Source: Vulcanimicrobiota bacterium (GTDB lineage Bacteria > Vulcanimicrobiota > Vulcanimicrobiia > Vulcanimicrobiales > Vulcanimicrobiaceae). Taken from it: a stretch of 34,253 nt of DNA. The first letter of the stretch is position 1. The number at the start of each line of letters is the position of its first letter. A program made the position numbers and the translations under genes. Below, one piece after another: positions 1 to 19,950 of the stretch. The DNA lies in contig JASHPI010000011.1 of the NCBI GenBank assembly GCA_030038215.1, positions 1 to 34,253 on the forward strand. The letters are read 5' to 3'. The notes under the pieces are model-generated. The model saw only the letters and a list, made by a program, of their open reading frames with translations, was not told the DNA's origin and ran no database searches.

Positions 1-2142
1 GTGATCACCGGTGAGGATCTCGATGCCGCCAAGCTCGAATGGCTCCCGACCTTCCATGGCTTCGACAAGCAAATGGTCCTGGCTTTGGGCAAGGCGCTCT
101 ACCAGTATCAAGAGGTCGCCGGCGTGATCGCGACCACGCGCGAGATCGCGCACGACGGCGCCGAACTGGTCGAGGTCGAGTACGACCCGCTCGATCCGGT
201 CGTCTCACCCTTCCAGGCGAAGGAAGACAAGATCATTCTGCGCGATGACCGCGAGACGAAAACGAACCATATCTATCACTGGGAAGTCGGCGACAAGGAG
301 AAGACTGCCGCCGCGCTCGAGCGCTCGGCGGTCCGCATCCAGGAACGCATCCTCTCACCGCGCTGCCATCCGGCCCCGCTCGAACCCTGCGGCATGGTCG
401 CAGACATGAACAAGGCGACGGGCCGTTTGACCGTCTACATGACCTCGCAAGCGCCGCACGTGCATCGGACGGCGTTTTCGCTGGTTACGGGCATCCCCGA
501 GGATAAGATTCACGTGATCTCGCCCGATGTCGGGGGCGGTTTCGGCAACAAAGTACCGGTCTATCCGGGCTATGTCGTCGCGGCGGTCGCGTCGGTGATT
601 ATTGGGGTTCCGGTGAAGTGGGTCGAAACGCGCACCGAAAATCTCACCACCACCGGTTTTGCGCGCGACTATCACATGGACGTCGAGATCGGCGCAGCCA
701 AAGACGGCAAAGTCACCGCGCTGAAGGTCTCCACGACCGCCGACCACGGCGCCTTCGACGCGGCCGCCGATCCGCGCAAGTATCCCGCCGGCATGTTCGG
801 CATCGTGACCGGATCGTATGATTTTCCAACCGCGTTCGCCGAAGTCGACGCCTATTTCACGAACAAGGCGCCGGGCGGAATCGCGTATCGCTGCTCGTTC
901 CGCGTTACCGAAGCCTCTTTCGCGATCGAGCGCGGCATGGACATTCTCGCGCGTAAGCTCGCGATGGATCCCGCCGAGCTGCGACGGCGCAACTTCGTGC
1001 GCAAGGAGCAGTTCCCGTATCCGTCACCGTTGGGCTTCGTCTACGATAGCGGCGATTACGAAACGACGATGCGCAAGGCGCTGGACAAGATCGGCTACGA
1101 CGCGCTCCGTAAGGAACAAGCCGATAAACGCGCCAAAGGCGAGCTCATGGGCATCGGCGTGTCGAGCTTCACCGAGATCGTCGGCGCGGGACCCGGCAAG
1201 CACTTCGACATCCTCGGCATCAAGATGTTCGACAGCGCCGAGATCCGCATTCATCCGACCGGATCCGGTATCGTCCGCGCCGGCACGCGCCACCAAGGTC
1301 AGGGTCATGAGACCACGTGGGCGCAGATCGTGGCCGAAGAGCTCGGCCTGGACCCGCAAGAACTCTTGGTCGAAGAAGGCGATACCGACACCGCGCCATA
1401 TGGCCTGGGGACTTACGCCAGCCGCAGCACGCCGGTCGCGGGCGGCGCGCTGGCGCTGGCGGCGCGCAAGATTCGCCAAAAGGCTCAGAAGATCGCGGCT
1501 CATTTGTTGGAGGCCTCGGAAGCCGACGTCGAGTGGAAGGATTACAAGTTCAGCGTCAAGGGCGTGCCGGGCAAGAGCGTCACGATGAAGGACGTTGCGT
1601 TTGCGGCGTACACCAATCCGCCCCCGGACACCGAGCCCGGCCTGGAAGCGACCTATTATTACGATCCGCCCAACCTGACGTTCCCCAACGGAACCTACGT
1701 TGCGGTCGTCGACGTCGATGGCGAAACCGGCGCCGTGAAAGTGCGCCGCTTCTTGGCGGTCGACGATTGCGGCGTCGTGATCAACCCGATGATCGTCGAA
1801 GGCCAAATCCACGGCGGCTTGACGGAAGGCTTCGCCATGGCATTCATGCAGGAGATCGTGTACGACGACGACGGCAACCACTTGAACACGAACTTCACCG
1901 ACTATCTCATTCCGACCGCGTTGGAGACGCCGCATTGGGAGACCGATAGCACGGTCACGCCTAGTCCGCATCATCCGATCGGCGCCAAGGGCGTCGGCGA
2001 GAGTCCAAACGTCGGCTCGCCGCAGGCGTTCGTAAATGCCGTGATGGACGCTCTCGCTCCGCTCGGCATCACGCACATCGACATGCCGCTGACGCGGGAA
2101 AAGATCTGGCGCGCCATCCGGGACGCCAAAGCGCAGCAATGA
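1..2142 (+). CDS. coxL: Form I aerobic CO dehydrogenase, large (Mo-binding) subunit, 5'-truncated by the window
   Basis: Catalytic subunit of the Mo-Cu CO dehydrogenase, which oxidises CO with water to CO2 and passes electrons through FeS and FAD subunits to quinone. The visible 713 residues carry the form I signature AYRCSFR at residues 295-301. Cys298 corresponds to the Cu-ligating Cys388 of the Oligotropha enzyme, and form II proteins have AYRGAGR here. Glu667 in GAKGVGES matches the catalytic glutamate near the C-terminus. Family members are about 800 residues and the sequence opens in mid-domain (residues 12-16, KLEWLP), so about 90 residues lie upstream and the GTG at base 1 is not the real start. 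The stop overlaps the coxG start as ATGA. coxM and coxS are not visible and probably lie upstream. Confidence 0.96.
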   Translation: MITGEDLDAAKLEWLPTFHGFDKQMVLALGKALYQYQEVAGVIATTREIAHDGAELVEVEYDPLDPVVSPFQAKEDKIILRDDRETKTNHIYHWEVGDKEKTAAALERSAVRIQERILSPRCHPAPLEPCGMVADMNKATGRLTVYMTSQAPHVHRTAFSLVTGIPEDKIHVISPDVGGGFGNKVPVYPGYVVAAVASVIIGVPVKWVETRTENLTTTGFARDYHMDVEIGAAKDGKVTALKVSTTADHGAFDAAADPRKYPAGMFGIVTGSYDFPTAFAEVDAYFTNKAPGGIAYRCSFRVTEASFAIERGMDILARKLAMDPAELRRRNFVRKEQFPYPSPLGFVYDSGDYETTMRKALDKIGYDALRKEQADKRAKGELMGIGVSSFTEIVGAGPGKHFDILGIKMFDSAEIRIHPTGSGIVRAGTRHQGQGHETTWAQIVAEELGLDPQELLVEEGDTDTAPYGLGTYASRSTPVAGGALALAARKIRQKAQKIAAHLLEASEADVEWKDYKFSVKGVPGKSVTMKDVAFAAYTNPPPDTEPGLEATYYYDPPNLTFPNGTYVAVVDVDGETGAVKVRRFLAVDDCGVVINPMIVEGQIHGGLTEGFAMAFMQEIVYDDDGNHLNTNFTDYLIPTALETPHWETDSTVTPSPHHPIGAKGVGESPNVGSPQAFVNAVMDALAPLGITHIDMPLTREKIWRAIRDAKAQQ

Positions 2143-2624
2143 ATCTTTCATGGAACGGTACCGAAGAGATTCAGGCCGGCAAAGACGCCGTCTGGACGTT
2201 CATCAACGATCCGGCCAAGATCGCCACGTGTCTGCCCGACGTTCAAAGCACGACCATTCGCGACGCACACAGTTTCGACGCGACCGTCGGCGTCGCGCTA
2301 GGCCCTGTGCGCGGTAAGTTCACCTTCAAAATCGCGCTCCAACCGGCTAGCGACGGCAACCATATGGACATGAAGGTCTCGGGCGGCGGGCTGGGAAGCG
2401 TCGTCGACCTCATTGCTGGTGCGGATCTGGTCTCCAATGGCGACGCTTCGACCACGCTGAATTGGAAGGGAACCGCCGATATCCGCGGTCCGGCCGCGAC
2501 GGTCGGCGGCCGCGTACTCGACGCACAGGCGCATCGCGTGATCAGTACGACCTTCGAGAACGTCAAGAAAAGCTTGAGCGGCAGCCCGCAGGCGCCGTCG
2601 AACGCCCCGGGAGATGCGCGCTAG
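2139..2624 (+). CDS. coxG: CoxG, SRPBCC-fold CO dehydrogenase accessory protein
   Basis: A 161-residue member of the CoxG family, a START/SRPBCC-like hydrophobic-pocket fold. CoxG proteins are reported to link CO dehydrogenase to the membrane and to carry menaquinone. The N-terminus (MNLSWNGTEEIQAGKDAVW) and the central CLPDVQ and VSGGGLGS segments are typical of the family. The start ATG overlaps the coxL stop (ATGA), so translation is probably coupled. The C-terminus ends in a short Pro/Ala/Ser-rich tail (SGSPQAPSNAPGDAR) with no membrane helix, so any membrane contact must be made another way. Its end overlaps the next gene by 11 bases. Confidence 0.9.
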   Translation: MNLSWNGTEEIQAGKDAVWTFINDPAKIATCLPDVQSTTIRDAHSFDATVGVALGPVRGKFTFKIALQPASDGNHMDMKVSGGGLGSVVDLIAGADLVSNGDASTTLNWKGTADIRGPAATVGGRVLDAQAHRVISTTFENVKKSLSGSPQAPSNAPGDAR

Positions 2625-3624
2625 CTTTTTCGAACGGGTGGCCGAGTTGGAACGCGCGCGCACGCCGTTTGCGCTCGCGACCGTCGTCGTCCGGCACCCG
2701 CCCGTCAGCTCGCATCTGGGCGATCGCGCGATCGTTTTTGCCGATGGACGCATGCAGGGATTCGTAGGTGGGGCTTGCTCGCGCGACATCGTGCGCCGTC
2801 AGGCGGTAGCGGCCATGCGCAGCGGGACCGGAAGGCTGGTGCAGATCCGTCCGGGCGCGCCGCCCGACGCAGACGATGCGGCGCCCGTCGGGACGGTGAT
2901 CGTGCCGATGACCTGCACGTCCGAGGGAGCCGTGGACGTCTACGTCGAGCCGCACCTGCCGCCACGCGTTCTGCTGGTCGCGGGAGCGACGCCGGTGGCG
3001 CGATCGCTCGTTGCCATCGGCGGGCTGCTCGATGGTTTTCGCGTCGTGCGCGTGTTGCAGGAGAGCGACCTGGCCGATCTTTCGCCGGAGGATCTGCGTG
3101 GCGTGATCGCGCTCTCGGCCCTCGGCGAGTTTCTGCGCGAACTCGATCCGGGAGAGCGCACGTCGCTGGTCGCGGTCGTCGCCACGCAGGGTCATTACGA
3201 CGAGCCCGTTCTCGAAGCGCTGCTCGACGCGCAGGCGTTGCCCTACATCGGTCTGCTGGCGAGTCGCCGGCGCGCAGCCGGCGTCTTCGCGACGCTGGCC
3301 GCGTCGGGCATGACGCGCGAACGGATCGAACGCGTGCAGAATCCGGCCGGGCTGGACATCGGCGCTCGCCGGCCAGGCGACGTCGCGGTTTCGATCTTGG
3401 CACAGATTGTCGCGATCGTGGCTGCCATCGAACCGCAAGCGGTGCGGCCCGAATCATTGAGCGAGAGGCTGGCGGCCGATCCGGTCTGCGGCATGGACGT
3501 CGAGGTTGCAAGCGACGCGCAGCGCGCGGAATACGACGGCCGCGGCTATTACTTCTGCGGCGCCGGATGTCGCGCCATCTTCCAGGAGGATCCGTCGCGC
3601 TATGCCGTGGCGGCGCATGCATGA
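2614..3624 (+). CDS. XdhC-family Mo-cofactor chaperone fused to a C-terminal YHS metal-binding domain
   Basis: XdhC/CoxF/CoxI proteins bind molybdenum cofactor and help it to be sulfurated and inserted into xanthine-oxidase-family enzymes. Residues 1-270 are a complete XdhC: N-terminal motif GFVGGACSRDIV with Cys55, then TCTSEGAVDVYVEP, then a Rossmann half (VLLVAGATPVARSLV, later YIGLLASRRRA and NPAGLDIGARRPGDVAVSI). Residues 286-333 are a YHS domain: ADPVCGMDVEV with Cys292, then YYFCGAGC with Cys315 and Cys319. YHS/TRASH domains bind copper and other soft metals. The start overlaps coxG by 11 bases and the stop overlaps coxD as ATGA. The fusion suggests that one protein handles both Moco and a metal, possibly the active-site copper; that is inference. 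Confidence 0.9.
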   Translation: MRASFFERVAELERARTPFALATVVVRHPPVSSHLGDRAIVFADGRMQGFVGGACSRDIVRRQAVAAMRSGTGRLVQIRPGAPPDADDAAPVGTVIVPMTCTSEGAVDVYVEPHLPPRVLLVAGATPVARSLVAIGGLLDGFRVVRVLQESDLADLSPEDLRGVIALSALGEFLRELDPGERTSLVAVVATQGHYDEPVLEALLDAQALPYIGLLASRRRAAGVFATLAASGMTRERIERVQNPAGLDIGARRPGDVAVSILAQIVAIVAAIEPQAVRPESLSERLAADPVCGMDVEVASDAQRAEYDGRGYYFCGAGCRAIFQEDPSRYAVAAHA

Positions 3625-4565
3625 ACGGAACGCAGATCCGCCGGCGTTTCGCGGAACGAGGCTACATCGCCGACGAGGACTTCGCCACCTCAATCGAGCT
3701 GATGCTCGCACTCGAGAAGCCGCTGCTGGTTGAAGGTCCCGCCGGCGTCGGCAAGACCGAGAGCGCGAAAGTGCTTGCCGACGTGCTCGATACCAAGCTG
3801 ATCCGCTTGCAATGCTATGAAGGCCTCGACGCCGCGAGCGCGCTCTACGAGTGGAACTATCCCAAGCAGCTGCTGCACATCCGGCTGACCGAGAACGAAG
3901 GCATCTCCCTGGCCGAGCGCGAGACACAAATCTTCAGCCAGCCGTTCCTGCTCGCACGGCCGCTGCTCGAGGCCATCTCGCAAGCCCGCGCCCCGGTGCT
4001 GCTGATCGACGAAATCGATCGCGCCGACGAAGCATTCGAAGCCTTTCTCCTCGAGCTTCTGGGCGAATTTCAAGTGACGATTCCCGAAATCGGCACGATA
4101 CGCGCGAAGGAGCGTCCGGCGGTGATCGTCACCTCGAACCGCTCGCGCGAGCTCTCGGACGCGCTGCGCCGCCGCTGTCTCTATCTGTGGATCGCATATC
4201 CGGAGCTCGAACGCGAGGTGGCAATCCTGCGCGCGCGCTTACCCGGCGTGAACGAACGACTGGCGCGGCAGATCGCGCGCTTCATGGAGTTTCTGCGAGG
4301 ACAGCCGTTCCAACGCGTCCCGGGAACCGCCGAAAGCCTGGACTGGGCGCTGGCGCTCGTACGTCTGCACCGCGATGAACTCGACGAAGCGACGCTTGAA
4401 CTCACCGCCGGCTGCATTCTCAAGGTGCAGGAGGATTGGGAGCTCCTGCGGACGCTGCGCACGCAATATCGGCCGCTCTTGGAGCCGGCCGGGGGCGAGA
4501 TCGTGGTGCCAACGCCGCCTGAAGCCGATTACGGCTTGGGGTCGGTGCGCGCGAACCTGGGATGA
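3621..4565 (+). CDS. coxD: CoxD, MoxR-family AAA+ ATPase
   Basis: A 314-residue MoxR-type AAA+ ATPase. In Oligotropha, CoxD is needed for maturation (sulfuration) of the CO dehydrogenase Mo site. Walker A is EGPAGVGKT with Lys45, Walker B is LLIDEID with Asp130-Glu131, and sensor 1 is VTSNRSRELSDALRRRC. The start at 3621 is chosen because its ATG overlaps the stop of the preceding gene (ATGA) and the product begins just before the conserved N-terminal helix. The open frame runs further upstream to about 2775, but that stretch is antiparallel to nothing conserved and lies over the XdhC gene in another frame. It overlaps coxE as ATGA. MoxR ATPases usually work with VWA proteins, here CoxE. Confidence 0.94.
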   Translation: MNGTQIRRRFAERGYIADEDFATSIELMLALEKPLLVEGPAGVGKTESAKVLADVLDTKLIRLQCYEGLDAASALYEWNYPKQLLHIRLTENEGISLAERETQIFSQPFLLARPLLEAISQARAPVLLIDEIDRADEAFEAFLLELLGEFQVTIPEIGTIRAKERPAVIVTSNRSRELSDALRRRCLYLWIAYPELEREVAILRARLPGVNERLARQIARFMEFLRGQPFQRVPGTAESLDWALALVRLHRDELDEATLELTAGCILKVQEDWELLRTLRTQYRPLLEPAGGEIVVPTPPEADYGLGSVRANLG

Positions 4566-5674
4566 GCGCCAATCTTACTGCGGGTGTCGTCGAGTTCTGC
4601 GCGCACCTGCGCCGCGAGCATGGGTTCAAGGTCGGCCCACGGGAAGCGCGCGACGCGATGCGAGCGATCGAATGCGTCGGAGTCGAGCGGCGGACGCGCG
4701 TCGCCGCCGCATTGCGCAGTATCTGCTGTAGCGGCCCCGAGGAGATCGCGCTCTTCGATCGCGCCTTTGCGGCTTTCTTCTCACTCGCGCCGGGCGTTGC
4801 GCAACCGAGGCCGCAGCGGCAGCCGCAGACGAGCGACGCGGGAGCCACAGGGGCGCCGCGCCAGTCCGCGCCCGCAGCCGAGAGCCTAGCTGACGGGTGG
4901 GAGCTGCGCCGCGCGCAGTACAGTCCGGCAGCATCGCCGGTCGACGCCGTGGCCATTCCGACCGAAGGGCTCGATGCGGCATTAACCCAAGCGCAACGTC
5001 TCATCCAACGCCTGCATCTGGCTCGATCGCTGCGTTGGAAGCCAAGGGCCCGCGGCGAGCGCTTCGATCTGCGGCGCACATTGCGCGCCGGGCTGCGCAC
5101 CGGCGGTGACGTGATGTTGCCGCGCATGCTCGATCACCCGCTGCGCAATCCGCGTTTCGTTCTGTTGCTCGACGGCAGCCGCTCGATGAGCGAGCACAGC
5201 GCGCGCATGCTCCAGTTCGCCTATGCGCTCTGCCGCTGCACGCGTCGCGCAAGCGCGTTCGTTTTCAGCACGAGACTCCGCGAGGTCACCCGTCAACTCC
5301 GTAGCGTCGCTCGTAAGGCGTATCGCTTGGAGGGCTTGGGCGAAGCTTGGGGCGGCGGCACCCGTATCGGCGCGAGTCTCGTGGAGTACCTTCGAAACTT
5401 TAGCGGACTCTTGAGCGATCAAACGTTCGTAATCGTGATGAGCGATGGGCTGGATGTCGGCGAGATCCCGCAACTGCAGCGCGCGATGAGCGAGATCGCG
5501 CGGCGCTCGGCGGCGATCGCGTGGGTCAACCCGCACGCGGACTCACCCGGCTACGTGCCCTCGGCGGACGGCATGCAGGCGGCGTTGCCCTATCTGGCGA
5601 CACTCGTCTCGTTCGATCGGCTCGGCGCGTTAACCAACCTGCGCCGTCGCCGGAGGATGGCCGCCGATGCGTGA
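4562..5674 (+). CDS. coxE: CoxE, VWA-domain partner of CoxD
   Basis: A 370-residue CoxE-family protein. The C-terminal half is a von Willebrand A domain with a complete MIDAS start, LLDGSRSMS (Asp204, Ser206, Ser208), then GGGTRIGASL and VIVMSDGLDVGE. The N-terminal half (residues 1-130) is helical with a Gln/Ala/Pro-rich linker around 80-105. CoxE acts with CoxD in post-translational assembly of the Mo-S-Cu site; work in Oligotropha links CoxE and CoxF to the copper step. Start codons overlap on both sides: ATGA with coxD, and 8 bases with the following XdhC gene. Confidence 0.93.
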   Translation: MSANLTAGVVEFCAHLRREHGFKVGPREARDAMRAIECVGVERRTRVAAALRSICCSGPEEIALFDRAFAAFFSLAPGVAQPRPQRQPQTSDAGATGAPRQSAPAAESLADGWELRRAQYSPAASPVDAVAIPTEGLDAALTQAQRLIQRLHLARSLRWKPRARGERFDLRRTLRAGLRTGGDVMLPRMLDHPLRNPRFVLLLDGSRSMSEHSARMLQFAYALCRCTRRASAFVFSTRLREVTRQLRSVARKAYRLEGLGEAWGGGTRIGASLVEYLRNFSGLLSDQTFVIVMSDGLDVGEIPQLQRAMSEIARRSAAIAWVNPHADSPGYVPSADGMQAALPYLATLVSFDRLGALTNLRRRRRMAADA

Positions 5675-6608
5675 GGTCTTCGCGACCGCGGCCGACTGGT
5701 TGGAAGAGGGCCGCAGCATGGCGCTGGCGACGCTGGTCGAGTTGCGCCAAGCTGCGACCGCTCCGATCGGCACGAGCATCGCGGTTGACGGCGCGGGACA
5801 CATCGTCGGCAACATCGGCGCCGGCTGTCACGAAAGCGAGATCGTCGAGGCGTGCCTGCGCGCGGCGGCCGACGGGCAAGCCCGCCGGCTCGACCTCAAC
5901 CTCGATGAAGATGAGTTGCTCGGGGGCAACGGGTGCGGCGCGGTGTTGCGAGTCGTGGCTTGGCGACCCGGGCGCGCTTTTCGCGAGGAGGCGCGTGCAA
6001 TTGCCGCCGGCAAGCGCGAAGCGCGTCTTTCATTCGCTTACGATGGCGGCAGAGCCGTCTTCGAGCACGTCTACCCAGCCAAAGAAACGCTGATTCTGAT
6101 CGGCGCCACGTCGCTGGCCGCGGAGCTGGCGACGATCGGCCGGCGCGTGGATTTCAACGTCGTCGTCGTCGATCCACGACCGGCATTCGCGACGGCCGAA
6201 AGAGTTCCCGACGCCGACGCGCTGGTGCGCGCGTGGCCGGACGAATATCTGCCGGCCGCGCTTTCGGAGCGCACGTCGATCGTGGTGCTTTCGCACGATC
6301 CAAAGTTCGATCTGCCGGCGCTGCGCTGCGCGCTGCGCTCGAACGCACCGTACATCGGGCTGTTGGGAAGCCGCCGCTCTCAGGCCAGCCGGCGATCGTC
6401 GCTGCGCGATGAGGGATTCGATGCGGAAGCGCTGGCGCGCGTGCACGGGCCGGCCGGCCTGGATATCGGAGGCGCAACGCTTGCGGAGACGGCGGTCTCG
6501 ATTCTGGCTGAGATCGTCGCGAGCCGGCACGAGCGCTCGGGCCAGTCGCTGCGAACGACCGACCGCGAGATCCATCGCCGCTCCGAAGGCGTCGCAAGGC
6601 AGGCATGA
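5667..6608 (+). CDS. coxF: Second XdhC-family protein, CoxF-like
   Basis: A 313-residue XdhC/CoxF protein without a YHS domain. The N-terminal XdhC domain has GNIGAGCHESEIVEA (Cys54) and a second conserved cysteine motif, LGGNGCGAVLRVV. The C-terminal Rossmann half has LILIGATSLAAELA, VVVLSHDPKFD, YIGLLGSRRSQ and HGPAGLDIGGATLAETAVSIL. The two XdhC paralogues differ: this one keeps the GNGCG motif, while the YHS fusion has TCTSEG instead, so their jobs are probably not identical. The tail after about residue 290 is charged and unlikely to be structured. Which of the two is the true CoxF orthologue cannot be decided from sequence alone. The stop overlaps the mocA start as ATGA. Confidence 0.9.
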   Translation: MREVFATAADWLEEGRSMALATLVELRQAATAPIGTSIAVDGAGHIVGNIGAGCHESEIVEACLRAAADGQARRLDLNLDEDELLGGNGCGAVLRVVAWRPGRAFREEARAIAAGKREARLSFAYDGGRAVFEHVYPAKETLILIGATSLAAELATIGRRVDFNVVVVDPRPAFATAERVPDADALVRAWPDEYLPAALSERTSIVVLSHDPKFDLPALRCALRSNAPYIGLLGSRRSQASRRSSLRDEGFDAEALARVHGPAGLDIGGATLAETAVSILAEIVASRHERSGQSLRTTDREIHRRSEGVARQA

Positions 6609-7156
6609 TCGCGGCGCGAGCCGTCATTCTCGCCGCCGGCACGTCGTCGCGCGTGGGCCGGCAAAAACTCTTGATGGAGTTCCGCGGCCGCCCATTGATC
6701 GAGTACGCGATCGCGGCGGCGCGAGCGTGGAAGCCGGTTGTCGTTGCCGGTCCGCAGGTCGCGGGCTATCTGTTCGACCGCTCCGACGTTACGGTGCTGC
6801 GCAACGACGCGCCGGAGCTTGGCATGGCACATTCGCTGAGTTTGGCGAATCGCGCGCTGCCCGAAGCCGGCGCGATGATCGTCTTACTCGGCGACAAACC
6901 CCTGATCAGCGCTTCGCTTATCGAATCGATCTGCCGAGCACCGGATGAAATCGACCTCGCCTATCCGGTGCGCGATGGCGTCCCGGGACATCCGGTTGCG
7001 CTCTCCGCGCGCGCGCGTCGCTGCATCGACCGCCTGCCGCCGGGCGATACGCTGCGCCTTCTGCGCGATCGCGCCGACCTGCGGCAATGGGCGATGCCCA
7101 GCGAGGACGCCGGCGCATTCTTCGACGTCGATACGGTCGAGGCGCTCGACACCTAG
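6605..7156 (+). CDS. mocA: MobA-like nucleotidyltransferase, probable molybdenum cofactor cytidylyltransferase
   Basis: A 183-residue protein of the MobA/MocA nucleotidyltransferase fold. The nucleotide-binding signature VILAAGTSSRVGRQKLL is at residues 7-23. IVLLGDKPLIS is the usual metal-site aspartate strand and VPGHPVALS the loop that closes the site. CO dehydrogenase uses molybdopterin cytosine dinucleotide, so a CTP-using MocA in this operon fits, but GTP or CTP preference is not proven by the visible motifs. The ATG overlaps the preceding stop. The next gene starts 50 bases downstream on the same strand. Confidence 0.88.
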   Translation: MIAARAVILAAGTSSRVGRQKLLMEFRGRPLIEYAIAAARAWKPVVVAGPQVAGYLFDRSDVTVLRNDAPELGMAHSLSLANRALPEAGAMIVLLGDKPLISASLIESICRAPDEIDLAYPVRDGVPGHPVALSARARRCIDRLPPGDTLRLLRDRADLRQWAMPSEDAGAFFDVDTVEALDT

Positions 7157-7206
7157 AGCACTGATTGGCCAGGGGCCGCGCGGTTGCGCGGGAACCTACC
7201 CGGATC

Positions 7207-7794
7207 ATGCGCAAGCCGTCCGTGATCGAAATATTCCTCACCTTCCTGCAGATTGGCGCCATCAGCTTTGGTGGAGGCGTCGTGGCCTATCTGCGCGATG
7301 GTCTGGTCCGTAATAAGAAGTGGTTCGACGACGTCGAGTTTCTTGAGCTGACGTCGATCAGCAACACGCTGCCCGGCCTCAACGCCACCAATATCGCGAT
7401 TCTCGCCGGCGACCGGCTGGGCGGGTGGCCGGGAGCCTCGCTCGCGCTGATCGGCATGTGCATTCCGGCATTCATCTTCATGACCGCGGCCGGAATCGTC
7501 TACGGTCAGTCGCATTCACGGCCATTGGCCAGCGCAGCGCTGCGAGGAGTCGCGGCCGCGGCAACCGGCCTGCTCGCCGCCACCTGGTTCAAGATCGGAA
7601 AGAAATCCCTGAAGGGATTCTACGACGCGTTCTTCGTGATGGCCGCGATCTTAGGCATCAACTACTTCAAGTGGGGTGTGCCGATCACGCTGCTGGCCGT
7701 CGGCGCGCTGGCGATCTTCACCTATCGGCCGACGACCGCGCCGCCCGAGAAGCCCGCGCAGGAGGAAGAACAATGGATCAGCTCCCTGCACTAG
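7207..7794 (+). CDS. CHR-family (chromate transporter-like) half-protein 1
   Basis: A 195-residue membrane protein of the CHR oxyanion transporter family, short-chain type. It has the ISFGGGVVAYLRDGLV motif near the N-terminus, followed by NTLPGLNATNIAILAGDRLGGWPG, which matches the usual LPGP-N-T-Q-A-I-x-x-G pattern. Five to six hydrophobic segments are visible. The start is set at ATG 7207 (MRKPSVIEIF); the frame is open upstream to a TTG at 7165, but those residues are Arg-rich and not family-like. It overlaps the second half by 22 bases. Short CHR proteins work as pairs of opposite topology. The substrate may be chromate or sulfate, or molybdate given the context; none is shown. Confidence 0.87.
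   Translation: MRKPSVIEIFLTFLQIGAISFGGGVVAYLRDGLVRNKKWFDDVEFLELTSISNTLPGLNATNIAILAGDRLGGWPGASLALIGMCIPAFIFMTAAGIVYGQSHSRPLASAALRGVAAAATGLLAATWFKIGKKSLKGFYDAFFVMAAILGINYFKWGVPITLLAVGALAIFTYRPTTAPPEKPAQEEEQWISSLH
7761..7766 (+). promoter_or_regulatory. Ribosome binding site of CHR half 2
   Basis: GGAGGA lies 6 bases before the ATG at 7773, inside the end of the preceding gene. It supports 7773 as the true start of the second CHR gene. Confidence 0.75.
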
Positions 7795-8294
7795 CAAAAG
7801 TCTTCGCCTATCTTTCCTTCCTGACGATCGGCGGCGGCATGGCCGCCTTTCCCGAGATGCGGGTGCTGATCGTCGACGTGCATCGTTGGCTGACCGCCGA
7901 ACAGCTGACCCACGTCTACAGTACCGGGCAGATGTCGCCGGGCCCGAACATGATGATGGTGGCCGAGGTCGGTCAACTTGTAGCCGGGTTTCCGGGCGCG
8001 CTCGTCTGCGCAATCGCGTTCTTTCTTCCAACGGGAATCCTGACGTTCTTGGTTGGACGCTTGTGGAAGCGGCTCGAAAACTGGCCGTGGCGCGCATCGA
8101 TTCAAAAGGGACTGGCACCGGTGGCGATCGGGCTGGCGGTGGGCGGTCTGATTACGTTCGGCCGGACTGCCGTCACGGGATGGCTTACCCTCATCGTCGC
8201 ATTCGCGACATTCGTGGCCGTCGCGCGAACGAAGATCAATCCGGTGTTCTTTATCCTGGGCGCCGGCGTGATCGGCTTGATCGCGATGCGCTAA
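7773..8294 (+). CDS. CHR-family (chromate transporter-like) half-protein 2
   Basis: A 173-residue membrane protein, the second half of the split CHR transporter. The motifs TIGGGMAAFPEM, RWLTAEQLTHVYSTGQMSPGPN and GFPGALVCAIAFFLPTG are the counterparts of the conserved FGGG, W-L-T, G-x-x-PGP and GxxGA-FxPs segments of the family. The start is fixed by a good ribosome binding site. It overlaps the first half by 22 bases, so the two are almost certainly translated together. Its TAA is followed immediately by the ATG of the next gene. Annotation as chromate transport comes from family only. Confidence 0.87.
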   Translation: MDQLPALAKVFAYLSFLTIGGGMAAFPEMRVLIVDVHRWLTAEQLTHVYSTGQMSPGPNMMMVAEVGQLVAGFPGALVCAIAFFLPTGILTFLVGRLWKRLENWPWRASIQKGLAPVAIGLAVGGLITFGRTAVTGWLTLIVAFATFVAVARTKINPVFFILGAGVIGLIAMR

Positions 8295-13237: not shown

Positions 13238-14335
13238 CTAGCCGCGAAACACGCTCAAGAGGAAAACGGCGCACGAGGCGGTGACGACGCCGGCGACAGC
13301 GGTGCCGCCGAGAAACAGCGGGCCGCCGATGCGGCCCTCCCCCATAATCGTTCGGTTACGCGCGATCGCTACCAGCAGCCAAAGCGTCAGTGGCGTTGCT
13401 AGGCCGCCGACGACTGAGGCCGCATAAAGCAAAGCGATCGGCGACGACCCGACGAGCGCGAATGCTGCCGACAGCGCGAGCGAGCCCAGCAGGGCCGCGT
13501 AGAAGATCGGTGCATCGCGCCAGTGCGCGTCGAGGCTGCCGTTCCGATCGAACGTTTGCGTCACGACATAAGCGCTCGTAGCCGCGAGAATCGGAACGGC
13601 GAGGGCGGCCGACGCGAGCAGCCCAACGGCAAACAGCGCCGTTGCCCATTGGCCCGCCAGCGGCTCTAGTGCCACCGCTGCATCGGTAGCCGTTTGCACG
13701 TTCGTGTGAGTCTTTCCGAGCGTTGCGGCCGTCGCGACTAGGATGAAGAAGAAACAGATTCCCGGCGCCAGCGCTCCCCAGGCAGCGTCGGCTCTCGCCC
13801 AACCTGCGCGCGTCGCCGGCGTCCGGCGCTCCGAGACTTGGATCTGCTCCCAATAGTACACGTAACTCGTCAGGGTCGTCCCAAGCAGCGCTAAGGCGCC
13901 GGTAACGACCGGCGGCGAGAGCGAGAAGCGCGGAAACAGCAGCGAGTGCAGGAGCGCGGACCAATCGGGACGTGCGAGCACGGCGCTGATGCCGTACGCC
14001 ACGAAAACGAAGGGAAGGCAAGTGAGAACGCGTTCGACGCGCCGATAGGATCGCACCAAGAGCAGCCCGGCTGCGACGGCTGCGAATGGAACAACGAAGA
14101 CTTGCCGGGGCACGCCGAAGAGCAGCTTGAGCGATTCCGCACCCGCCTGAATGTCCGCCGCAAGCGTCATGAGGTTGACCGCAACGATGGCGGCCAGAGC
14201 GAGCAACGCCCACACCAAGCCGTACCGCCGCTTGATCGCGCCTTGAATGCTGATTTGGGAAGTGCCAACCGAAGCGGCGATGGACTGAACGATCGCGATC
14301 ATTGGAAACAAGAGCACAACCAGCCACGAAAGCAT
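13238..14335 (-). CDS. NRAMP-related transporter, start codon unresolved
   Basis: A polytopic protein (365 residues from ATG 14335) related to NRAMP divalent-metal transporters. The conserved first helix lies upstream of this ATG: in the same frame, bases 14423 down to 14336 encode PFGPGFVAGASDADPTTVAS and more, matching the NRAMP GPGF-TGASDDDP segment. No ATG, GTG or TTG occurs in that frame between 14335 and the upstream in-frame stop near 14657, so either the start is unusual or there is a sequence error. DPTT replaces the DPGN of Mn/Fe transporters, and the sixth-helix region reads GTTLTSYVYYWEQIQ without the metal-binding methionine. It therefore belongs to the divergent side of the family, where substrates such as Mg are known. 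The preceding gene stops at 14443. Confidence 0.75.
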   Translation of the reverse strand: MLSWLVVLLFPMIAIVQSIAASVGTSQISIQGAIKRRYGLVWALLALAAIVAVNLMTLAADIQAGAESLKLLFGVPRQVFVVPFAAVAAGLLLVRSYRRVERVLTCLPFVFVAYGISAVLARPDWSALLHSLLFPRFSLSPPVVTGALALLGTTLTSYVYYWEQIQVSERRTPATRAGWARADAAWGALAPGICFFFILVATAATLGKTHTNVQTATDAAVALEPLAGQWATALFAVGLLASAALAVPILAATSAYVVTQTFDRNGSLDAHWRDAPIFYAALLGSLALSAAFALVGSSPIALLYAASVVGGLATPLTLWLLVAIARNRTIMGEGRIGGPLFLGGTAVAGVVTASCAVFLLSVFRG

Positions 14336-17243: not shown

Positions 17244-17278
17244 ACCAAAGCTGCTCTGCAGCCGCGCTGGAACAACTT

Positions 17279-17283
17279 GGAGG
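17279..17283 (+). promoter_or_regulatory. Ribosome binding site of first phosphoesterase
   Basis: GGAGG is 8 bases before ATG 17292. It fixes that ATG as the start, in preference to the TTG at 17277, which overlaps the site itself. Confidence 0.85.
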
Positions 17284-17291
17284 TTCGCGCG

Positions 17292-18629
17292 ATGGAGCAT
17301 TTAGGGTGGGTACGGCTCGCTTTCTTGGTGGCACTGACCGGTTGCGCGCAGAGTTCGATGCTGCCCGCGCCTCAGACGTTCCCGCTTGCACTCTCACCCG
17401 AACAGACGGCAGTGAAGATCCGACACGTCGTCATCATCTTCCAAGAGAATCGCAGCGTCGACAATCTCTTCAACGGCTTCCCCGGCGCGGATACGGTACG
17501 CAGCGGTTTGACCTCCGGCGGCCGCAGGGTACCGCTGCACCCGGTCAGCTTGTCCGCAGCCTACGACCTCGGCCATGCGCATTTCAATTTCGAAAGAGAG
17601 TATGCCGGCGGTCAGATGAACGGCTTCGACCTGGTTCACGGGGCGTGCTACTCGGTGATAACGTGCGGACAACTAGATCTTCGCGCCTACGGATACGTGC
17701 CGCGCGACGAGGTGCGGCCCTACTTCGACATGGCGTCGCAGTATACGTTTGGCGATCGAATGTTTCAGACCAATCAGGGACCAAGCTTCCCGGCGCACCA
17801 ATACATTCTGAGCGGAACATCAACCATCGCCGACGGCTCCGGGCTGCGCGCTGCGGAGAATCCCACCGGGGGGCCGGGAGGTTGCGACTCGCCGGCTGGA
17901 ACGATGGTCGAGCTCATCGATCCGACGGGCAAGGAAGGCATGCCGATCTTTCCGTGCTTCGATCGCACGTCGCTGATCGACTTGCTCGAGCGCAAGTCGA
18001 AAAGCTGGCGTTACTACCAAGCCTATATCGGAGCGGGGCTCTGGAACGGACCCGACGCTCTCGTGCACGTCCGAGAGAGTCGCGACTATAGCACTCACGT
18101 CGTAACTCCGCAGACCCAAGTCCTCTTGGATATCAAACACGGAGCGCTTGCTGACGTCGTCTGGGTAACGCCGAGCGGGCTGGCGTCCGATCATGCTTCG
18201 AGCACGAACGGCTCGGGGCCGTCGTGGGTCGCCGCGGTCGTCAATGCCGTCGGGGAGAGCCGGTACTGGCATGACACGGCGATCTTCGTGACCTGGGATG
18301 ACTGGGGCGGATGGTACGATCACGTTCGGCCGCCGCCGTATAACTCGTACGAACTCGGTTTTCGCGTACCGCTGATCGTGATATCACCATATGCCAAGAA
18401 TCACTACATTTCGCACGTCCAACACGAATTCGGCAGCATTCTAAAGTTTGTCGAGAAGACATTTGGCTTGCCTTCGCTTCACACGACCGACGTCCGCTCT
18501 GACGATCTCTCGGACTGTTTCGACTTCTCCAAACCGCCGACGCGATTTCGACCGATTCCCGCGCGGCTGCCGCCGAGCTATTTTTTCAAACAACCGATAG
18601 ACAGGACGGCACCCGACGATGATCTTTAA
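17292..18629 (+). CDS. Lipoprotein phosphoesterase (phospholipase C / AcpA acid phosphatase family), copy 1
   Basis: A 445-residue exported lipoprotein: signal peptide MEHLGWVRLAFLVALTGC with lipobox LTGC (Cys18). The body is a PF04185-type phosphoesterase, the family of bacterial phospholipase C and Francisella AcpA, which hydrolyse phosphomonoesters or phospholipids. IRHVVIIFQENRSVDNLF carries Glu52-Asn53, and TWDDWGGWYDHV carries Asp336-Asp337, equivalent to the AcpA metal-ligand pairs Glu43-Asn44 and Asp386-Asp387. GPSFPAHQY with Ser165 is the likely nucleophile region. Fold and motifs are complete, so activity is expected; the substrate is unknown. It is very similar to the next gene, and its end overlaps that gene by 11 bases. 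Confidence 0.9.
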   Translation: MEHLGWVRLAFLVALTGCAQSSMLPAPQTFPLALSPEQTAVKIRHVVIIFQENRSVDNLFNGFPGADTVRSGLTSGGRRVPLHPVSLSAAYDLGHAHFNFEREYAGGQMNGFDLVHGACYSVITCGQLDLRAYGYVPRDEVRPYFDMASQYTFGDRMFQTNQGPSFPAHQYILSGTSTIADGSGLRAAENPTGGPGGCDSPAGTMVELIDPTGKEGMPIFPCFDRTSLIDLLERKSKSWRYYQAYIGAGLWNGPDALVHVRESRDYSTHVVTPQTQVLLDIKHGALADVVWVTPSGLASDHASSTNGSGPSWVAAVVNAVGESRYWHDTAIFVTWDDWGGWYDHVRPPPYNSYELGFRVPLIVISPYAKNHYISHVQHEFGSILKFVEKTFGLPSLHTTDVRSDDLSDCFDFSKPPTRFRPIPARLPPSYFFKQPIDRTAPDDDL

Positions 18630-19950
18630 GTGCAGAATCGCTCTCTTAATTGCGCTGAGCGGCTGCGTTCAGTATTCGATGATGCCGGGGTCTCCAGCGC
18701 CCGCGTTCGCGCCGGCGACCGAGCAAGTTCGGTCGAAGATCCGACACGTGGTTATCATCTTTCAAGAGAATCGGAGCGTGGACAATCTCTTCAACGGCTT
18801 TCCGGGCGCGGACACGGTTCGCATCGGCTTCAATTCCAGCGGACGGAAGGTGTGGCTGCACGCGGTCAGCTTATCCGCACCCTTCGACCTCGGTCACGCG
18901 CACCTCTCGTTTGAGAAAGAGTACGCCGGCGGTCAGATGAACGGCTTTGATCGGGTCGGGGTGCGTTGCTACTCGGTTCTACCCTGCGCGCCGCACCAAC
19001 GCCGCGCCTACGGGTACGTGTCCAGCAACGAAGTCCAACCGTACTTCGACATGGCCTCGCGTTACACGTTTGGCGATCGGATGTTTCAGACTAACGAGGG
19101 GCCGAGTTTCCCGGCGCACCAGTACATCGTAAGCGGAACGTCGACCATTGCCAACGGTTCCGGGCTGCGAGCCGCGGAAAATCCGACGGGAGGCGGTGGA
19201 GGTTGCGACGCGCCGTTAGGAACGGTGGTCAAGCTGATCGATCAGGCCGGCCACGAGGGCACGGCAATCTATCCTTGCTTCGATCGCATCTCGCTCATGG
19301 ACTTGCTCGAGCGCAAGTCGCTGACCTGGCGCTACTACCAAGGCTTCCTCGGCCCGGGAATCTGGTTCGGCCCCGATGCCATCTTACGCATCCGCGAGAG
19401 TCGCGATTATAGCGCCAACGTGGTGGCCCCGCCCCAGCAAGTCTTGATAGACATCGCGCATCGATCGCTCGCCGACGTGGTCTGGGTCACGCCGAGCGCG
19501 TTCGATTCCGATCATCCTTCGGCCAACAACGGCTCGGGTCCATCCTGGGTCGCTGCAGTCGTCAATGCTATCGGCAAGAGCCCGTACTGGAATGATACCG
19601 CGATCTTCGTGACGTGGGACGATTGGGGCGGATGGTACGATCACGTTCCTCCGCCACGATATAACTCGTACGAGCTCAGTTTTCGCGTGCCCCTGATCGT
19701 GATATCCCCGTATGCCAAGAACCACTACGTCTCACATGTCCAACACGAGTTCGGCAGCATTCTGAAGTTCACCGAGGAGACGTTCGGGTTGGGATCGCTC
19801 CATACGACCGACGTCCGCGCCGACGATCTCTCGGATTGCTTCGACTTTTCCAAACCGCCGACGGCGTTTCGGCCTATTCGTGCCCCGCTGCCGGCAAGCT
19901 ACTTCCTCAATCACCCGACAGACAGGACGGATCCCGACGACGACTTCTAA
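18619..19950 (+). CDS. Lipoprotein phosphoesterase (phospholipase C / AcpA family), copy 2
   Basis: A 443-residue tandem paralogue of the preceding gene, roughly three-quarters identical by eye over the catalytic domain. It has its own lipobox signal peptide (MIFKCRIALLIALSGC). All catalytic landmarks are kept: IIFQENRSVDNLF, GPSFPAHQY and TWDDWGGWYDHV. The differences concentrate in the segment RVGVRCYSVLPCAPHQRR and in the loop KLIDQAGHEGTAIYPCF, so substrate fit may differ. The start overlaps the preceding stop by 11 bases, so the two are almost certainly expressed together from the promoter near 17209. The 3' end overlaps the annotated GTG start of the GloVer gene. Confidence 0.9.
   Translation: MIFKCRIALLIALSGCVQYSMMPGSPAPAFAPATEQVRSKIRHVVIIFQENRSVDNLFNGFPGADTVRIGFNSSGRKVWLHAVSLSAPFDLGHAHLSFEKEYAGGQMNGFDRVGVRCYSVLPCAPHQRRAYGYVSSNEVQPYFDMASRYTFGDRMFQTNEGPSFPAHQYIVSGTSTIANGSGLRAAENPTGGGGGCDAPLGTVVKLIDQAGHEGTAIYPCFDRISLMDLLERKSLTWRYYQGFLGPGIWFGPDAILRIRESRDYSANVVAPPQQVLIDIAHRSLADVVWVTPSAFDSDHPSANNGSGPSWVAAVVNAIGKSPYWNDTAIFVTWDDWGGWYDHVPPPRYNSYELSFRVPLIVISPYAKNHYVSHVQHEFGSILKFTEETFGLGSLHTTDVRADDLSDCFDFSKPPTAFRPIRAPLPASYFLNHPTDRTDPDDDF

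Follow-up and report, generated by a model that had tools for sequence, protein, structure and literature searches.

The 336 aa open reading frame at positions 2614–3624 of the window (+ strand, ATG to TGA), the window being the whole 34,253-nucleotide stretch of DNA that was analysed, encodes an orthologue of CoxF of form I CO dehydrogenase that carries a YHS domain at its C-terminal end. The protein is probably a CoxF whose C-terminal soft-metal module holds copper and passes it to the Mo-S-Cu CO dehydrogenase. In the bacteria and archaea surveyed, the XdhC-YHS version is found only beside the copper enzyme, so that its role as a candidate copper donor can be tested directly.

Positions 1–7156 of the window consist of overlapping genes, all on the + strand:

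1–2142, +: coxL, form I CO dehydrogenase large subunit; above the TIGR02416 cut-off (1100.7 bits, cut-off 991); 5′ end cut by the contig start
883–903 (nt), +: AYRCSFR motif in coxL, motif position
2139–2624, +: coxG-like gene; PF06240, E = 3.7e-29; 4-base overlap with coxL, 11-base overlap with coxF
2614–3624, +: CoxF orthologue, XdhC with C-terminal YHS; Pfam, clade with SH-aLRT 99, AlphaFold2, Foldseek
3436–3462, +: flexible linker from XdhC core to YHS, residues 275–283; pLDDT <50
3475–3609, +: YHS domain, residues 288–332; PF04945, E = 3.6e-12; ligand conservation in 110 domains; AlphaFold2
3621–4565, +: coxD, AAA+ ATPase; AAA_5/AAA matches; ATGA overlap with coxF at 3621–3624
4562–5674, +: coxE, VWA protein; PF05762, E = 1.4e-44
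5667–6608, +: second XdhC, CoxI type, without YHS; Pfam; L003, a near-identical relative, falls outside the CoxF clade
6605–7156, +: MocA-like nucleotidyltransferase, probably for molybdopterin cytosine dinucleotide synthesis; PF12804, E = 1.1e-30; TIGR03310 below cut-off

Adjacent genes overlap by 4 to 11 bases and thus are probably translated together. We take AYRCSFR to be the form I signature, with the cysteine of the motif holding copper, as established for Oligotropha. The coxF gene adjoins coxD and coxE and a CoxL with AYXCSFR. An earlier note on this DNA had described an operon with two XdhC proteins, one of them an XdhC with C-terminal YHS at 2614–3624 beside a form I CoxL, and the Pfam YHS match, the TIGR02416 match and the AYRCSFR motif bear this out. 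Elsewhere in the window there are a chromate transporter present as two overlapping half-size genes (7165–8294), an Nramp-family metal transporter gene downstream of the cox operon (13238–14335, − strand) and an adjacent pair of PF04185 phosphoesterase-family genes with an overlap of about 11 bases (17277–19950).

The XdhC part of the protein shows the Pfam domains XdhC_CoxI at residues 14–77 (E = 5.1e-14) and XdhC_C at residues 120–265 (E = 2.2e-25), both scoring above the Pfam cut-offs. Scores against the NCBIfam XdhC equivalogs are below the curated cut-offs (NF045664, 96.8 against 350 bits; TIGR02964, 34.7 against 161.6 bits). The YHS match is over its curated cut-off, with 46.5 bits against 30.3. 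There are only five cysteines, at positions 55, 101, 292, 315 and 319, and the last three are the YHS cysteines, as the note had correctly named them. Asp289 is likely the fourth ligand.

An AlphaFold2 model based on an alignment of 31 fusions gives a pLDDT of 87.5, with a confident YHS domain and a disordered linker at residues 275–283. Among XdhC-type structures, the core of the model resembles 2we7/2we8 (Foldseek 5e-16; Z = 17.3 with rmsd 4.2 over 239 residues) and also 3on5. The YHS domain modelled alone (pLDDT 87.7) has the YHS fold and matches the YHS part of 3rng, a toluene/o-xylene monooxygenase, with Z = 7.0 and rmsd 2.4 over 50 residues; Foldseek E-values for this model are no better than 0.05, and the match to L24e is weaker. 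By sequence, the window YHS matches phenol hydroxylase with E = 8e-4.

The YHS domains of multicomponent monooxygenases (3rng, 2inp) and the ribosomal L24e TRASH domain thus show the same small fold as the window YHS. However, L24e holds its metal by four Cys and the toluene hydroxylase (toluene-4-hydroxylase) YHS is reported without bound metal (PMC4626032), whereas the window set is Asp and three Cys. That the nearest solved YHS domains are those of toluene and phenol hydroxylases, the toluene one being reported metal-free, weakens the copper-module reading. It also speaks for a reading that we consider rather unlikely, in which YHS, either filled with zinc or empty of metal, serves for structure or for docking CoxF on CoxL or CoxD/CoxE, and copper has another source. 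The best matches of the YHS model are indeed the monooxygenase domains, and residues P290, F314 and F323 beside the cysteines are conserved as strongly as the ligands. Yet the ligands themselves are kept in at least 90 of 110 domains, and the short His/Cys tails that appear to take the place of YHS in the window's phylum suit metal holding better than docking.

In a tree of the XdhC core, with YHS left out, a single clade of 43 rows unites all CoxF-type proteins, whether or not they have YHS, and includes Oligotropha CoxF; the SH-aLRT value of 99 comes from a quick tree made without bootstrap, with the window represented by close relatives. CoxI-type and form II XdhC fall outside the clade. 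The window protein shares the XdhC_CoxI domain and the XdhC Rossmann fold with CoxI and XdhC proteins in general (2we7/2we8, 3on5), but CoxI and form II XdhC have no YHS and no tie to form I.

CoxF of Oligotropha (Afipia) carboxidovorans OM5 has the XdhC core and the neighbours coxL, coxD, coxE and coxG, and it is implicated in copper insertion into CO dehydrogenase (PMC4240915). Oligotropha mutants in coxE and in coxF yield CO dehydrogenase without Cu and with Mo partly sulfurated, and the authors of that study proposed CoxF as the copper supplier (PMC4240915). A place in one clade with this protein favours a copper role for the window CoxF. Each of the two mutants had lost both proteins, so that the Cu defect is not cleanly assigned to CoxF (PMC4240915). 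Oligotropha CoxF differs from the window protein, which has a YHS domain, in being a 280 aa protein with no YHS and with a tail, RRHGQRQSDNQKEGTS, that contains no Cys. The suggestion in the earlier note that the fusion protein is a candidate for copper loading stands in so far as its orthologue has genetic support in Oligotropha (PMC4240915), but YHS itself is not required there. The further idea that the same polypeptide need hold the Mo cofactor (Moco) is unsupported, since Oligotropha assembles the cluster on Moco that the folded enzyme already contains (PMC4240915). The sequence MCPSHGTM of Oligotropha CoxF has been reported as a copper motif but is a weak signature; its Cys is found in 44 of 44 CoxF and in 22 of 25 other XdhC.

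Fetched stretches of at least 9 kb gave 61 form I loci and 37 form II (AYRGAGR) loci. A CoxF-type XdhC is present in 54 of the 61 form I loci and in none of the 37 form II loci (Fisher p about 3e-20, which overstates independence because the loci are related by descent, though the pattern spans several phyla). CoxD is found in 35/61 form I and 29/37 form II loci, CoxE in 35/61 and 27/37, and other XdhC genes occur in both locus types alike and are common in form II. Thus CoxF tracks the copper form whereas CoxD and CoxE do not, and this distribution favours a copper role for CoxF. None of about 84 non-CoxF XdhC proteins has a YHS domain; among the approximately 85 XdhC below the CoxF threshold the sole YHS carrier is a CoxF that a contig end has truncated. 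The note had proposed as a check that the fusion should follow CoxL with AYXCSFR and avoid form II enzymes, and these counts agree with that.

Several loci of this survey have features of their own. L073 contains a distant XdhC (162 bits, just above the CoxF threshold) with no YHS and no CoxL nearby. L115 and L117 carry form I CoxL with no XdhC, CoxD or CoxE in the stretch; they are explained as extra copies rather than form I loci lacking CoxF, as each genome has another copy with CoxF. The CoxL of Caballeronia SBC1 (L046, around 4916) has AYRCSFM, not AYRCSFR, and keeps the copper-ligand Cys. In form II loci such as L137, L140, L144 and L157 the XdhC N-domain and Rossmann domain are apparently in separate open reading frames that overlap or abut.

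Enzymes of the xanthine-oxidase family in general require sulfuration. Instead of copper, the YHS cysteines could carry sulfur as persulfide for the Mo-S ligand, and both the thiol-rich site and the general tie of XdhC proteins to Moco sulfuration (PMC4240915) are in keeping with this. But sulfuration is general in the family, yet YHS is on no non-CoxF XdhC examined and form II loci are without CoxF; in addition, the CO dehydrogenase of the coxF mutant retains some sulfurated Mo (PMC4240915). We regard a persulfide function as quite improbable.

The fusion is widespread and not unusual. Peptide patterns run against a collection of 84,980 species, each represented by one genome, picked out 39 loci. 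Of these, 38 are CoxF relatives, and in nearly all loci whose contig reaches far enough a CoxL with AYRCSFR lies just upstream on the same strand. Altogether, YHS is retained in 111 of 133 distinct CoxF-type XdhC proteins (full ligand set in 91, a CxxC variant in 18). XdhC-YHS recurs in Vulcanimicrobiota, Actinomycetota, Deinococcota, Thermomicrobiota, Betaproteobacteria and one haloarchaeon, with Pseudomonadota and Chloroflexota sampled through plasmids only and not whole genomes. This recurrence in five bacterial groups and a haloarchaeon, beyond one genome, rules out a one-off or an assembly artefact. In the genomes sampled, CoxF outside Alphaproteobacteria usually has this fused form.

Among 148 genomes of the window's phylum, 18 have a form I CoxL over the cut-off and 26 have matches of >230 bits to the fusion alignment, all of them at cox-type loci with form I-type CoxL sequence adjoining. 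The next-best matches reach 133 bits and are without YHS. One form I genome is without a strong match, and its CoxL is at a contig edge. Actinomycetota show the same pattern for the fusion and form I CoxL, and in Deinococcota the YHS fold is on 21 of 21 strong matches. The form I locus of the haloarchaeon Natronorubrum bangense (L203, 5950–7089) has an XdhC-YHS CoxF with SCCGGG in the linker ahead of YHS. One actinobacterial CoxF (L107, 7404–8888, − strand) carries two tandem YHS domains. In a single-contig genome (G008; L184, 8381–9451, − strand) the CoxF reading frame continues into CoxD sequence from inside its YHS domain, and a partial CoxL adjoins; this finished genome thus contains a cox locus in decay. 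Among the open-access papers searched, none pairs YHS with XdhC or with coxL.

In 110 YHS domains, Asp289 is conserved in 99, Cys292 in 90, Cys315 in 92 and Cys319 in all 110, and the Cys292–Cys315 spacing is 23 in 93. The window pattern, D289-x2-C292-x22-C315-x3-C319, is spaced exactly as are D178, C181, C204 and C208 in the YHS of the Mycobacterium phlei adenylyl cyclase. Judged by sequence, the window YHS has the Asp/Cys-Cys-Cys-Cys ligand set of copper-binding YHS/TRASH domains with the spacing conserved. The M. phlei domain is likewise C-terminal on a catalytic partner, and it is activated by copper and by no other transition metal tried with Mg2+ (PMC4626032). The identical spacing and the conserved ligands favour a soft-metal module.

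However, the M. phlei YHS is fused to a cyclase and is described as a Cu2+-responsive regulatory domain, a sensor and not a donor (PMC4626032). By analogy, the CoxF domain might sense copper and gate CoxF, e.g. by delaying cluster assembly until copper is present, with no donation of the metal. There is little likelihood of this in our estimation, as a carrier could more readily be replaced by short His/Cys tails than an allosteric sensor could.

The Deinococcota sequences are mostly DPTSGE...FSCPNC or SPVD...FTCANC, with a CxxC pair, and two members have CPxC...FCCPNC. Most have thus lost two of the three cysteine positions while keeping the CxxC pair, and the loss weakens the copper-module reading. 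A neutral fusion, inherited with the clade and with no role in metal handling, would fit the patchy presence of YHS across the CoxF clade, where it was lost several times (13 label changes, some of them due to contig ends). It is nevertheless highly improbable, for the last Cys is present in 110/110 domains from bacteria and an archaeon, though the whole proteins are only about 40% identical.

YHS and a Cys tail are both absent from alphaproteobacterial CoxF and from L077 and L204. YHS is therefore not universally required, the alphaproteobacterial CoxF being the sole one tested genetically, and copper insertion can work without the module; a requirement for YHS is unsupported. The absence of the module from the only lineage studied at the bench is the main weakness of the copper-module reading. 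L033, L035, L037 and L119 were discounted as exceptions lacking YHS, their CoxF stopping at contig ends, and L040 has a truncated CoxF. In the loci scanned, no separate YHS open reading frame of at least 35 aa is found near a YHS-less CoxF, the only exceptions being L039, where CoxF is frameshifted, and L041, where the protein is unrelated; this speaks against a neighbouring YHS gene in those loci.

In the window's phylum, four CoxF proteins that lack YHS end in DHHCCHT, EHAHCCEHERA, SHATHCS and SSCCHHSES... (HHCCH, HCCEH, HATHC and CCHH). As background, 2.6% of 3,101 open reading frame ends have at least one Cys and at least two His in the last 20 residues. The probability of four out of four by chance is 4e-7, a guide only, as the pattern was defined after seeing it. 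A search of the rest of the window's family gave no further CoxF with a His/Cys tail. In the XdhC-core tree the tailed proteins are placed among YHS-bearing relatives, which suggests that YHS has been repeatedly replaced by His/Cys tails in this phylum. Such tails favour a soft-metal module, as do the SCCGGG plus YHS of the archaeal protein, the tandem YHS of the actinobacterial one and the CxxC pair of Deinococcota.

For the favoured reading, a CoxF with a copper module, we infer copper binding by the window YHS, a docking step and a path of transfer. The XdhC core of CoxF would dock on sulfurated apo-CO dehydrogenase. The YHS domain on its flexible linker would hold a soft metal, most likely Cu(I), by Asp289, Cys292, Cys315 and Cys319. 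Copper would then move on to the Mo-SH group and to the cysteine that CoxL contributes from its AYRCSFR motif; Cys55 and Cys101, both conserved in the core, may serve as a relay. On a broader view, which we judge about evenly balanced, CoxF would be the only accessory protein confined to the copper enzyme and would donate copper inside the cell through a C-terminus dedicated to that task, with an exchangeable soft-metal module (YHS, tandem YHS, CxxC-YHS or His/Cys tail), with CoxD and CoxE serving molybdenum hydroxylases generally.

Form I CO dehydrogenase is the only known Mo-S-Cu enzyme, and the existing model of how copper enters it rests on one alphaproteobacterium, whose CoxF is without an obvious dedicated copper domain. 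In the present survey CoxF of most lineages sampled carries a candidate thiol metal module. Among the accessory genes compared CoxF alone follows the copper form, and residues for mutation are now named. Aerobic CO oxidisers take up a large share of atmospheric CO, and this maturation step thus has a wider meaning.
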